From Planotetraspora phitsanulokensis (lineage in GTDB: Bacteria > Actinomycetota > Actinomycetes > Streptosporangiales > Streptosporangiaceae): a stretch of DNA of 64,000 bases. The notes beneath the pieces were generated by a model. That model searched no databases. It saw nothing but the letters and a program-made list of their open reading frames with translations, and was not told where the DNA came from. Shown one piece after another: positions 6,434 through 41,970 of this stretch. The stretch is from positions 62,001 to 126,000 of the forward strand of contig NZ_BOOP01000011.1 of the NCBI RefSeq assembly GCF_016863295.1, given 5' to 3'. Within the stretch, counting starts at the first letter, position 1. Every line of letters starts with the position of its first letter. Position numbers and translations under genes: made by a program.

Positions 6434-7750
6434 TCACGACGTCGTGCGGGTGAGCGCCTCCCGCTCGCCGGCGACCGGGTCCGCCGTGGCCTCGGCGAGC
6501 ACCTCCAGCGGGTTGGCGAGCACCTTGGAGAAGGCGAGTTCGGCCCCGCCGACCAGGGTGGCGTCGTCGCCGAGAGCCGCGGTGCGCAGTCGCACCCTCT
6601 CCCGGGAGATCACCAACACGTTGGCCGCCACCCGGTCGTGGATCTGGGCCGCCGAGCCTCGGTAGATCTCCCGCAACATCCCCCCGAAGATCACCAGGCC
6701 GGGATTAAAGAGGTTGATCAGGTTCGCCACCCCGATGCCCAGCCAGTCTCCGATACGGTGCAGCGCCTCACGCGCCACGACGTCTCCGCCCTCCGCGGCG
6801 TCCACCACGGCCCGGACCCCTTCCCGGCCCATCAGTCCGGACCGGCCGGCGGCGTCGAACAGGGCCTGCTCCCCTACCTCCGCCTCAAGGCAGCCTCGCG
6901 ACCCGCACCCGCACGGCCGACCGTCATACGGGTTCACGATCATGTGCCCGAGTTCGCAGCCGTAACCGCCGTCGCCGTCCAGCAGTTTGCCGCCGACGAT
7001 GATCCCGCCGCCGACGCCGACGTCTCCGTGCAGGTAGACCAGGTTCCGATGGCCGATGCCCACCCCGCGTTCGTGCTCGGCCAGCGCGCCCAGGTGGGCC
7101 TCGTTGCCCACCGACACCGGCAGCCCGAGCCCCAGCCTGACCCCGAGCTCGGCGCCGAAGGCCTGGTCCACCCAGCCCATGTTCGGCCCGAACCGCACCG
7201 TCCCGTCACCAGGCCGGATCATGCCGCAGTAGGCCGCGCCCACCCCGACGCACACCGAGCCGGGACTGGCGCCGCCGTCCATCTGACGGCCGAACTCGGC
7301 GAGCACCCCGACCACGTCGTCGAGGTCGGCCCCCGCGCGGGCCCGGACGGCCTCTCTGCGGTCGAGGATCGTGCCGCCCAGCCCGACCCTGGCGGCGACC
7401 AGCCGGTCCACCCTGACATCGAAGGCCAGGACGTACACCCGCTCAGATTCCGGCCGGACCACCAGCGACGGGCGGCCCGCCTTGCCGTTCTCCTTGGGAA
7501 GCTCTTCTCGCACCAGACCCGCCGAGGTGAGCTCGGCCGTCAACGCCATGATGGTGCTGCGGTTCAGACCCATCCGCTCGGCCAGCTCCGCACGGGAGAT
7601 CGGGCCGCCCAGATGCACCTGCCGGAGCAGGGCGCCGAGGTTGTGCCGGCGCATCTCCTCCTGTGGCCGACCGGCTTTCAGCATCGCGGGCATCCTGACG
7701 ACTCGGGGCTCGTCATTGTCGTGCACGCGGCGGGAGAACAGGGTGTCCAC
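6434..7750 (-). CDS. ROK family transcriptional regulator
   Basis: The protein is up to 438 residues and has an N-terminal winged helix (PISRAELAERMGLNRSTIMALTAELTSAGLV, about residues 50-80) and a sugar-kinase-like ROK domain. The ROK part contains the glycine-rich VGVGGGIIVGGKLLDGDGGYGCELGHM and the zinc/ROK signature CGCGSRGCLEAEVG. In-frame ATGs 20 and 23 codons later are also possible starts. Regulators of this kind control sugar catabolism, but no sugar genes are adjacent, so the target cannot be named. The gene is divergent from the Y-RNA array. Confidence 0.87.
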   Translation of the reverse strand: MDTLFSRRVHDNDEPRVVRMPAMLKAGRPQEEMRRHNLGALLRQVHLGGPISRAELAERMGLNRSTIMALTAELTSAGLVREELPKENGKAGRPSLVVRPESERVYVLAFDVRVDRLVAARVGLGGTILDRREAVRARAGADLDDVVGVLAEFGRQMDGGASPGSVCVGVGAAYCGMIRPGDGTVRFGPNMGWVDQAFGAELGVRLGLGLPVSVGNEAHLGALAEHERGVGIGHRNLVYLHGDVGVGGGIIVGGKLLDGDGGYGCELGHMIVNPYDGRPCGCGSRGCLEAEVGEQALFDAAGRSGLMGREGVRAVVDAAEGGDVVAREALHRIGDWLGIGVANLINLFNPGLVIFGGMLREIYRGSAAQIHDRVAANVLVISRERVRLRTAALGDDATLVGGAELAFSKVLANPLEVLAEATADPVAGEREALTRTTS

Positions 7751-7972
7751 GCCGACCGCGAGCGAACGGAACAGGTCCTGTCAGCACGTGACACTACCAA
7801 CCGGTGACCTCGGGAGCATCACCCCGGAAACGACGGAAACATGAATCGCCGGATTCTCCGTACCCCCGTCTGAGCCGTGACACGCCCGGTCCGGCTGCCG
7901 CCTGTAATGCGCCGGTCGCAGAAAAAACAGAATGCGCACCGAATATCACACCGGATACCGTCTGATCTTGTA

Positions 7973-8106
7973 CCTCCCGGTGCGCAGGCAACGGTTACTT
8001 CGCTCTGCAAAAGCGGCAACGCGGGTTCGAATCCCGCCGCCGGCCCAGGCCGGTGTCGTCCAGTGGCCTAGGACGCTACGACCGTCGCCGCCTTGACCTC
8101 GGGGGG
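7973..8106 (+). ncRNA. yrlA-like: Y-RNA-like unit 1 with a permuted tRNA-Glu-like module
   Basis: The outer stem is CCTCCCG 7973-7979 with CGGGGGG 8100-8106. The internal loop has GTGCGCA on the 5' side and TTGACCT on the 3' side. The inner stem is GGCAACGG 7987-7994 with CCGTCGCC 8082-8089, with one A-C mismatch. It is followed by TTACTTC. A T-arm comes next (GCGGG, loop TTCGAAT, CCCGC; 8021-8037), then an acceptor-like 7-bp hairpin (8038-8044 with 8049-8055, loop CCAG), then a D-arm (GTCC, loop AGTGGCCTA, GGAC; 8058-8074). The tRNA halves are in swapped order, the acceptor end is closed with no CCA, and the inner stem sits where the anticodon arm would be. This is the layout known for bacterial YrlA. 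The D-arm matches actinobacterial tRNA-Glu. Transcript ends are not determined. Confidence 0.82.
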
Positions 8107-8124
8107 AACACAACGTGACATGCA

Positions 8125-8199
8125 CCTCCCCGGTGCGAAGGTCCCGGATACTTCTCTCCAAAAGAAACCGGTCCGGTACCACCTCTGATCTCGGGGAGG
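8125..8199 (+). ncRNA. Y-RNA-like unit 2, minimal, without a tRNA-like module
   Basis: The outer stem CCTCCCCG 8125-8132 pairs perfectly with CGGGGAGG 8192-8199. The internal loop has GTGCGAA on the 5' side and CTGATCT on the 3' side. The inner stem GGTCCCGG 8140-8147 pairs with CCGGTACC 8173-8180, with one mismatch. The invariant ATACTTC follows, and the loop closes through a short TTCT/AGAA hairpin (8152-8155 with 8163-8166). No T-arm, acceptor or D-arm is present. The 5' strand GGTGCGAAGGT closely resembles the Ro60-binding strand of vertebrate Y RNAs. Upstream, TTGACC 8093-8098 and TGACAT 8116-8121 are 17 nt apart, a possible promoter of its own. Confidence 0.72.
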
Positions 8200-8216
8200 C
8201 ACAACTTCATATGCGT

Positions 8217-8311
8217 CTCCCGGTGCGATGGCGGCGGTTACTTCATTGGCTGAACACCTTCGGGTGGCGGTTTCGATATCCGCACACCGCCGCCGGCTTT
8301 TATCTCGGGAG
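8217..8311 (+). ncRNA. Y-RNA-like unit 3 with a reduced tRNA-like part
   Basis: The outer stem is CTCCCG 8217-8222 with CGGGAG 8306-8311. The internal loop has GTGCGAT on the 5' side and TTATCT on the 3' side. The inner stem GGCGGCGG 8230-8237 pairs perfectly with CCGCCGCC 8287-8294. TTACTTC follows the 5' strand. The distal part has a CACC-TTCG-GGTG hairpin (8255-8266) and a T-arm-like hairpin, GCGG and CCGC around TTCGATA (8267-8283). No D-arm is recognisable. A CTTTT run directly after the inner stem (about 8297-8301) could act as a terminator. Confidence 0.72.
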
Positions 8312-8328
8312 GAAAACGACTTCAGAAT

Positions 8329-8463
8329 GTGCCCGGTGCGCAGGCGACGGATACTTCGATTCGGGATCGAGTGGTCGCAGGTTCGAGTCCTGCCGGGGTT
8401 TCGGCCCTGTAGCTCAGGCGGCCAGAGCACTTCGGTTCCGTCGCCGACCTCGATCTCGGGCAC
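8329..8463 (+). ncRNA. yrlA-like: Y-RNA-like unit 4 with a full permuted tRNA-like module
   Basis: The outer stem GTGCCCG 8329-8335 pairs perfectly with CGGGCAC 8457-8463. The internal loop has GTGCGCA on the 5' side and CGATCT on the 3' side. The inner stem GGCGACGG 8343-8350 pairs perfectly with CCGTCGCC 8438-8445. After ATACTTC come a TCGAT/ATCGA hairpin (8356-8370), a T-arm (GCAGG, loop TTCGAGT, CCTGC; 8377-8393), an acceptor-like hairpin capped by a TTCG tetraloop (8394-8399 with 8404-8409), and a D-arm (GCTC, loop AGGCGGCCA, GAGC; 8412-8428). The 5' half reads like an ordinary tRNA start, TGTAGCTCAG. The Ro60 gene begins 50 nt after the unit. Confidence 0.82.
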
Positions 8464-8477
8464 GATCATTCTGAACG

Positions 8478-8508
8478 CGGGCTCCTCCCACACGTAGGAA
8501 GGGGCCCG
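8478..8508 (+). promoter_or_regulatory. Hairpin that pairs with the ribosome binding site of the Ro60 gene
   Basis: CGGGCTCCTCC (8478-8488) can pair with GGAAGGGGCCCG (8497-8508): nine consecutive pairs including one G-U, across an 8-nt loop. The 3' arm is the Shine-Dalgarno region (AGGAAGGGG, 8496-8504) of the gene starting at 8514. Folding would hide the ribosome site, so translation may be conditional. Regulation is inferred. Confidence 0.55.
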
Positions 8509-8513
8509 TCTCC

Positions 8514-10097
8514 ATGTCGAAGTTCAACACGACCGCCGCCCGCCCGGCCGTCTCCAGCCCGGTCACGACCGAGGCCACCCCCAGCGTCCGCACTCACGAG
8601 GGCGCGCCCGGGTACATCCGTGACGCGAAGGGTGAGCTCTTCCTCCTCGCCGTCTCCAACATGGTCGGTGAGAGCACTTTCTACGAGAAGGCCGGCGACC
8701 GCGACGAGCGGTTCCGCGCGCTCGTCCACCAGGTCGCCGTCGAGGACCTCGACTGGATGAGCCGCTTCCTGCCGTGGCTGCGCGGCGAGGCCAACATGCG
8801 GTCCGCGCCCGTCGTCGCCGCACTCGAGGCGGTGAGGGCCCGGCTCACCGCCGGCCTTCAGGGCGGTAACCGCGAGCTGGTCGGGTCCGTGCTCCAGCGC
8901 GCCGACGAGCCGGGCGAGGCCGTCGCCTACTGGATGTCCCGGTACGGCCGGGCGATACCGAAGCCGGTCAAGCGCGGCGTCGCCGACGCCGTGCGACGCC
9001 TGTACACCGAGCGGTCGCTGGCGAAATACGACAGCGCGACCCACGGCTTCCGCTTCGGCGACATGATCGACCTCGTCCACCCCGCCCCTGCCGAGGACAA
9101 ATACAGGCAGGGCGACCTGTTCGCGCACGCGCTCGATCGCCGTCACGGCCGTGACAAGCCGATCCCGGAGTCTCTGGGGATGGTGCGCCTGCGTGCCGAA
9201 CTGCTGGCTCTGCCGGTGGACGAGCGGCGCACGGTCATGGCCGCCGACCCCGGGCGGCTTCGCGCCGCGGGCATGACGTGGGAGGCGCTCGCCGGGTGGC
9301 TGCAGGGCCCGATGGACGCGCAGGCCTGGTCGACGGTGATCCCGTCGATGGGGTACATGAGCCTCATTCGCAACCTCAGGAACTTCGACGAGGCCGGCGT
9401 CAGCGACGAGCTCGCCGGGCAGATCGCGGCCAAGCTGTCCGACCCGGACGAGGTCTCCAGGTCGCGGCAGCTGCCGTTCCGGTTCTACTCGGCGTACCTC
9501 AACGCGCCGTCGCTGCGGTGGGGCCATGCGCTGGACAAGGCGCTGACGCTCGCCACCGGGAACGTTCCGTCCTTCACGGGCCGGACCCTGGTGCTGGTGG
9601 ACACCTCGGCGTCCATGACGTCCGGGACGATCTCGGCACGGTCGACGGTCACGCCGGCCCAGGCCGCCGCACTGTTAGGCGTGACGCTCGCCGCACGCGG
9701 CGACCAGGTCGACCTCGTCGGGTTCGCCGACGGGACGTTCCGCCACGAGATCCGGCGTGGTGCCTCGGTGCTGCGCGAGATCGACCGGTTCTGCGGGCGG
9801 ATCGGCGAGGTCGGCCACGGCACGCAGATCGCCGACGCGCTGCGGCGCTCGTGGAAGGGCCACGACCGGGCGGTGATCCTGTCGGACATGCAGACCATGA
9901 GCGGCCACTATTCGGGCGGCGTCACCGACGCGGTTCCGGCGCACGTGCCTCTGTACGGCTTCAACCTGCAGGGGTACCGCGCGGCGGCGATGCCGACCGG
10001 CCGGGGGAACCGGCACGAGTTCGGCGGGTTCTCCGACGCGTCGTTCCGGCTGATCCCGCTGCTCGAGGCGGGCAGGTCGGCCGGCTGGCCGTTCTGA
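8514..10097 (+). CDS. rsr: TROVE domain protein, bacterial Ro60 orthologue (Rsr)
   Basis: The 527-residue protein has an N-terminal TROVE domain (about residues 30-340), the HEAT-like ring that binds Y RNA and misfolded RNA. A C-terminal von Willebrand A domain follows. The MIDAS motif DTSASMTS is at about residue 363, and VILSDMQTMSG supplies a further metal-site Asp. The length matches known bacterial Ro60 proteins. ATG 8514 follows AGGAAGGGG at 9 nt. Four Y-RNA-like units lie directly upstream on the same strand, which strongly supports function as an RNA chaperone or RNA decay and processing scaffold. No rtcB/rtcA or PNPase gene is adjacent. A strong hairpin terminator follows. Confidence 0.93.
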   Translation: MSKFNTTAARPAVSSPVTTEATPSVRTHEGAPGYIRDAKGELFLLAVSNMVGESTFYEKAGDRDERFRALVHQVAVEDLDWMSRFLPWLRGEANMRSAPVVAALEAVRARLTAGLQGGNRELVGSVLQRADEPGEAVAYWMSRYGRAIPKPVKRGVADAVRRLYTERSLAKYDSATHGFRFGDMIDLVHPAPAEDKYRQGDLFAHALDRRHGRDKPIPESLGMVRLRAELLALPVDERRTVMAADPGRLRAAGMTWEALAGWLQGPMDAQAWSTVIPSMGYMSLIRNLRNFDEAGVSDELAGQIAAKLSDPDEVSRSRQLPFRFYSAYLNAPSLRWGHALDKALTLATGNVPSFTGRTLVLVDTSASMTSGTISARSTVTPAQAAALLGVTLAARGDQVDLVGFADGTFRHEIRRGASVLREIDRFCGRIGEVGHGTQIADALRRSWKGHDRAVILSDMQTMSGHYSGGVTDAVPAHVPLYGFNLQGYRAAAMPTGRGNRHEFGGFSDASFRLIPLLEAGRSAGWPF

Positions 10098-41796: not shown

Positions 41797-41946
41797 GGCG
41801 CCGGTGATCTGCCGAATCCGTGCAGCAAGGACGCACGGAGCCGGGGAACCAGTCGACCTTCGATGAAGGTCTGGGGTGAATCGGCGCGCCAAGCGCCGTA
41901 GGGCAACTTCCCTGCCCGAATCCGTCAGCTAACCCGGTAGGCGCAA
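41797..41946 (+). promoter_or_regulatory. c-di-AMP riboswitch (ydaO/yuaA type)
   Basis: The segment carries the conserved blocks of the ydaO/yuaA aptamer in order: GCCGAATCCG, GGAGCCGGGGAACCAG, GGGGTGAATCGGC, AGGGCAACTTCCCTGCCCGA, and TCCGTCAGCTAACCCGGTAGGCG at the 3' end (listed in pieces of the 150-nt element). It lies 25 nt before a secreted NlpC/P60 hydrolase, the classic actinobacterial target. Binding of c-di-AMP normally turns the downstream gene off. Confidence 0.93.
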
Positions 41947-41970
41947 GCGGAAGACCCCAAGGAGACCCCC

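Follow-up and report, generated by a model that had tools for sequence, protein, structure and literature searches.

Four tandem bacterial Y RNA genes upstream of Ro60 in Planotetraspora phitsanulokensis, two with a predicted circularly permuted tRNA-like module and a probable anticodon arm

YrlA, a known bacterial Y RNA (RF02553; PDB 6CU1), is composed of a basal stem that holds Ro60 and a tRNA-like domain, resembling the D, T, and acceptor arms, that binds PNPase (PMC8394870). In the crystal structure, it can be superposed on tRNA in circularly permuted form (PMC11472068), and a role as decoy has already been proposed for it (PMC7790460). In the Deinococcus Rsr-Y RNA-PNPase complex (RYPER), the Y RNA serves as a tether on the Ro60 ring, which is the working mode that would be expected, by analogy, for related RNAs. 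A permuted order of tRNA arms is also found in the circularly permuted tRNA genes of archaea and algae, and viral tRNA-like structures and tmRNA are further examples of tRNA mimicry by a non-tRNA. Vertebrate Y RNAs have an outer stem with a conserved internal loop and a CUUGAC-like strand on the 3' side.

Here, a 64-kb window (the whole stretch of Planotetraspora phitsanulokensis DNA that was analysed) was studied, in which four tandem units precede a Ro60 gene. The features of the locus are as follows, with bit scores referring to the covariance model CM R1 described below.

6434-7750, minus strand: ROK-family regulator gene; the array is placed between this gene and rsr
7973-8106, plus strand: unit 1, a Y RNA with a complete permuted tRNA-like module as predicted (112.3 bits, 7972-8107)
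8000-8016, plus strand: anticodon arm of unit 1, TCGCT-CTGCAAA-AGCGG, triplet GCA (read against the genome's own tRNA list)
8125-8199, plus strand: unit 2, a short Y RNA without T, acceptor, and D arms (47.8 bits)
8216-8312, plus strand: unit 3, a Y RNA with a hairpin and a T-arm-like hairpin, without anticodon arm (45.0 bits, 8215-8313)
8321-8328, plus strand: 5' strand (TTCAGAAT) of an extra helix by which the outer stem of unit 4 is extended; pairs with 8468-8475
8328-8464, plus strand: unit 4, a Y RNA with a complete permuted tRNA-like module as predicted (135.5 bits)
8355-8371, plus strand: anticodon arm of unit 4, TTCGA-TTCGGGA-TCGAG, triplet CGG (own tRNA list; ARAGORN tRNA-Pro call)
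8468-8475, plus strand: 3' strand (ATTCTGAA) of the extra helix of unit 4; pairs with 8321-8328
8514-10097, plus strand: rsr, a TROVE/Ro60 ortholog with a vWA domain, 527 aa (Pfam TROVE 4.3e-13, VWA_2 4.3e-6)

From 5' to 3', each unit runs through an outer stem, GGUGCG, an inner stem, an invariant UACUUC, a head, the second strand of the inner stem, a strand resembling UGAUCU, and the second strand of the outer stem, with a conserved internal loop formed by GGUGCGNAG facing UGAUCU. The gaps between successive units measure 15-18 nt. A sequence-only reading of this DNA had placed four tandem units here, and the outer stems it described are present; its account of the inner stems also holds, as those of units 1 and 2 contain one mismatch each (A-C and C-U) and those of units 3 and 4 are perfect. 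The tRNA-like modules within the units had escaped it; these were half-seen by ARAGORN (a tRNA-Pro call at 8330-8402, inside unit 4) and by Rfam (YrlA below threshold).

The YrlA model RF02553 matches unit 4 with 45.4 bits (E 7.5e-9) and unit 1 with 27.5 bits (E 1e-3), neither reaching the gathering score of 69; at gathering score, Rfam recovers none of the four units, and the best unit in 20 related loci scored 56.3 bits. Given the YrlA matches of units 4 and 1 and the plan that YrlA shares with the units, these are bacterial Y RNAs, a known kind found beside Ro60. They adjoin a Ro60/TROVE gene, they have a long covarying end stem with an internal loop, and units 1 and 4 carry a tRNA-like domain in which T, acceptor, and D arms follow in permuted order, an arrangement that unit 2 does not have. 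In YrlA, the Y stem continues into the anticodon stem and replaces it, leaving no anticodon hairpin and only the D, T, and acceptor arms, whereas units 1 and 4 bear a complete anticodon hairpin (closed, with a 5-bp stem and a 7-nt loop) and open at tRNA position 26/27 instead. The window family further differs from YrlA in its hypervariable triplet and in the several unlike heads of one array. The array itself is of a known kind; for the complete anticodon arm and the hypervariability, no description was found in Rfam or in the literature covered, and a prior description, e.g., in the primary Y RNA paper of 2014, is possible. As for the earlier suggestion that the units resemble the Ro60-binding site of vertebrate Y RNAs, the likeness stands at the level of sequence (CUUGAC/UGAUCU and GGUGCGNAGG) and goes no further, as no vertebrate Y RNA family in Rfam gave a match at E≤10 within 7800-8520 and vertebrate Y RNAs have no tRNA-like head.

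The comparative evidence was obtained with CM R1, whose training set comprised 21 units, two of them from the window. Over the 64-kb window and two control loci, the model finds exactly these four units and no other at E≤1, it reaches up to 107 bits at loci outside its training set (L017, L018, L020, and L024), and in 100 related loci a total of 222 units reached E≤1e-5. Across related genomes, 146 distinct units have standard pairs in 94.1% of the pair cells (vs 74.5% in shuffled and 42-51% in slid controls), and both sides have changed in 30 of 37 pairs (0 of 500 shuffles), in an alignment that was fitted to the covariance model and therefore favours it. Covariation was seen in the outer, inner, T, acceptor, and D helices, with helix 1 paired in 96% and helix 2 in 92%; the outer-stem pairing, whose absence from relatives would have spoken against the sequence-only reading, is thus conserved. 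Single-sequence folding of the units gave z-scores from −1.1 to −3.0, the latter for unit 2 (0 of 200 shuffles as good), but is a weak test because the best-energy structure of unit 4 misses the cloverleaf, and the comparative evidence was used instead. With the Rfam YrlA matches, the Pfam TROVE domain, and the units detected by the model upstream of Ro60 in 21 of 21 named related loci, the covariation bears out the earlier view that Y-RNA-like genes lie beside a bacterial Ro60. The named relatives are Planotetraspora, Microbispora, Planomonospora, Acrocarpospora, Planobispora, Thermocatellispora, Actinomadura, Lentzea, Nocardia, Antrihabitans, Streptomyces, Streptacidiphilus, and a Streptosporangiaceae MAG.

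In units 1 and 4, the head consists of an anticodon arm, a variable region of 4-5 nt, a T arm, a loop-closed acceptor stem, UA/UC (positions 8-9), and a D arm (GTAGCTCAG..AGAGC in unit 4). By comparison with related loci, both heads appear to be complete circularly permuted tRNA mimics with all four arms, opened between positions 26 and 27, i.e., at the junction of D arm and anticodon arm, so that the anticodon arm forms a closed hairpin. Unit 1 combines a Glu-like D arm with the Cys-like anticodon loop CTGCAAA. In a register test on units with room for the hairpin, for which the stem start directly after UAC was fixed beforehand and no selection on pairing was made, a 5-bp stem with a 7-nt loop was paired to 80% and 89% in two spacing classes; other starts and loop lengths gave lower pairing, the next best being 68% and 79%. 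At least four of the five anticodon-stem pairs are formed in 92 of 101 full-length units with room, and pairs 30:40 and 31:39 are standard in 99% (vs 48% when shuffled, 0/10000), with G-C, C-G, A-U, and U-A all in use. The acceptor is paired in 7 of 7 positions in 71 of 88 hairpin-type units; in window unit 4, its pairing is poorer and includes several G-U pairs. GG is present in the D loop of 78 of 80, which fits a tRNA elbow.

Four tRNA arms in permuted order, together with the identity of half of the loops to those of real tRNAs, might suggest permuted tRNA genes that yield functional tRNAs. However, the acceptor is closed by loops of mostly 3-8 nt, almost none of which contain CCA, and it thus lacks separable ends with room for CCA; the junction is fused to the conserved Y stem, and the genome already holds a full tRNA set. 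The tRNA model RF00005 gave 25.9 bits for unit 1 and 20.4 bits, so that no linear cloverleaf exceeds its gathering score of 29. Functional permuted tRNAs are therefore barely conceivable. The permuted tRNA genes of archaea and algae differ in the same respects from the units, which are bacterial, fused to a Y stem, and closed by a short acceptor loop, and viral tRNA-like structures and tmRNA differ in that the window units have neither an aminoacylation end nor a reading frame.

The two remaining heads are of other kinds. That of unit 2 is a single stem-loop (UUCU-CUCCAAA-AGAA), the loop of which is identical to the anticodon loop of the genome's own tRNA-Trp, and that of unit 3 is a hairpin plus a T-arm-like hairpin. 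About half of the short units that were parsed (by a rule, hence approximately) show a stem of 4-5 bp with a 7-nt loop, several of these being exact tRNA loops.

The loops of the hairpin follow a tRNA-like grammar. Among 64 distinct arms carrying 27 triplets, U33 is kept in 62 and A38 in 61, G36 occurs with G37 in 18 of 20 cases, and other bases at position 36 go mostly with A37 (Fisher 5e-9); no stop anticodon is present (P about 0.02) and A34 is rare (five arms). A single stem, UUCGA/UCGAG, bears 20 different loops. When compared with the tRNAs of one genome, a reference applied to all species, 34 of the 64 loops are identical to the anticodon loop of an own-genome tRNA vs 21-24 expected from shuffles (matched or exceeded by 0, 0, and 1 of 10000 in three shuffles). 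The loops of units 1 and 4 equal those of the genome's own tRNA-Cys and tRNA-Pro(CGG), respectively.

These observations bear on whether the units are ordinary YrlA-type Y RNAs in which tRNA capture has left the anticodon-like hairpin behind as a passive remnant without its own function and the head acts only through a D/T/acceptor elbow that tethers PNPase. Conservation does centre on the D/T/acceptor core, which matches RF02553, the triplet changes at about the rate of free DNA, and about a quarter of the classifiable full-length units (31 of 119, the other 88 being hairpin-type) show the classic YrlA topology by a rough automatic rule, which selects on pairing and leaves some units ambiguous, so that the unselected register test is the trustworthy one. 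Both topologies sometimes occur within one array (e.g., L125, L126, and L128). On the other hand, loss of the stem, of U33 and A38, and of the rule linking positions 36 and 37 would be expected of a passive remnant, whereas all of these are kept while the triplet turns over, and anticodon-like 7-nt loops are also seen in short units without a tRNA core. We thus regard a passive remnant as rather doubtful, and it is quite probable, judging from the sequences compared, that the anticodon arm of these Y RNAs is real and kept tRNA-like; the two judgements overlap in part.

Within the arm, the triplet behaves differently from its surroundings. Among five Planotetraspora species, 35 of 60 base comparisons differ in the triplets of units 1 and 4 (58%), compared with 6 of 340 in the T arm (~2%) and 16 of 200 in the anticodon stem, while fourfold sites of rsr differ by 8-34% and upstream intergenic DNA by 28-54%. 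The triplet is thus hypervariable, being either unconstrained or diversifying; as it changes no faster than free upstream DNA can, its constraint may simply be relaxed. A hypervariable triplet within a fixed frame would also suit a decoy or sensor role toward anticodon nucleases and tRNA damage, the triplets diversifying because the nuclease targets do, in line with the decoy role already put forward for YrlA. Phages carry the same RNAs by Ro60, often amid tRNA arrays, and in Streptomyces phage Kela, the Y RNA match and Ro60 are separated by an RNA ligase gene (L230:1489-2481), a link to RNA repair. Yet the triplet rate is not clearly above that of free DNA, and no RNA-repair gene is found among the nearest neighbours examined at the window locus, which leaves the nuclease explanation unlikely.

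Ro60 genes were found in 66 phage records, and Streptomyces and Gordonia phages have Y RNA units upstream of Ro60, some phages carrying 2-4. In the phages BRock and GiJojo, four units each were read, with GAUGCG replacing GGUGCG. Gordonia phage VanLee contains a clear hairpin-type unit (103.2 bits). In GenBank, phage units are labelled as tRNAs (records L222-L231), namely tRNA-Arg(cct) in GiJojo, tRNA-Ser(gct) in Alone3, and tRNA-Arg(tct) in VanLee, and ARAGORN calls tRNAs inside units in about half of 50 loci.

Among bacteria, matches to a simple pattern, some of them due to chance, are present in 171 of 347 genomes from the order, and a phylum-wide scan with the covariance model under strict filters retrieved 9 of 396 genomes outside the order (a count that includes the genome studied here), mostly from one Streptomyces-like genus, whose full units, where read, have the classic topology. 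The earlier impression that a four-member family is unusual is not borne out, since 26 of 106 scanned loci have four units and 20 have three, four units are also found in Streptomyces phages, and four tandem units are common to all five Planotetraspora species. In one congener, a second Y RNA array is carried by a different contig (L116, G204:C53). The genome itself encodes two more Ro60 homologues with 43% and 41% identity (G000:C3:264173-265444 and G000:C39:65603-66865), in whose searched flanks of 1.5-2.3 kb no Y RNA was found (best 12.8 bits); Ro60 therefore does not always need such RNAs.

In related loci, the spacers are mostly 12-18 nt. As these are too short for separate promoters, and scans recognised neither a promoter nor a terminator, the four units would be expressed as one precursor that is cut between the units and probably also runs into rsr. 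The flanks of last full-length units pair over a mean of 6.05 bp, vs 4.53 bp with shuffled partners. That the array precedes rsr with no terminator seen, and with a hairpin over the rsr ribosome site, could also be taken to mean that it is a cis-acting leader of rsr rather than a set of separate small RNAs. This is very improbable, as folding and covariation mark each unit as a closed RNA that has a Ro60-type stem of its own and as phage Atuin (L224) also has Y RNA matches downstream of Ro60.

The hairpin in question (GGGCTCCTCCC...GGAAGGGGCCC, 8476-8507) covers the rsr ribosome-binding site, and similar leader hairpins with clearly negative z-scores are present in about 13 of 21 related loci, which suggests translational control of Ro60. 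Just upstream of unit 1, positions 7930-7972 are strongly conserved across Planotetraspora (GAATGCGC..AATATC..CCGGATA.CGTCTGATCTTG) and are possibly a promoter. Elsewhere in the window, a c-di-AMP riboswitch (ydaO/yuaA leader) is found at 41800-41958 (85 bits).

As to how Y RNAs with a real anticodon arm might work, the precursor would be processed into four Y RNAs, each with a different effector head, and Ro60 (Rsr) would most likely bind the outer stem, internal loop, and inner stem of each unit. Units 1 and 4 would present complete tRNA mimics, unit 3 a T-arm-like element, and unit 2 just a stem-loop resembling that of an anticodon arm. By analogy with known YrlA RNPs (PNPase in Deinococcus), the head may tether a tRNA-binding or RNA-degrading partner to the Ro60 ring, and the anticodon arm could allow the RNA to engage readers of the anticodon loop (e.g., modification enzymes, synthetases, and anticodon nucleases), toward which it might act as recruiter, sensor, or decoy. 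A bolder proposal, in which whole-tRNA mimics bound by Ro60 form a class widespread among actinobacteria and phages, their anticodons diversifying as decoys or sensors against anticodon-cleaving nucleases and the Ro60 ring handling captured or damaged RNA, is speculative and in our estimate distinctly unlikely.

Y RNA units explain phantom tRNA calls by ARAGORN and at least three tRNA-Arg/tRNA-Ser labels of phage genomes in GenBank. For roles of bacterial Y RNAs beyond PNPase tethering, a tRNA-like arm with free-running anticodon letters would offer a directly testable handle.
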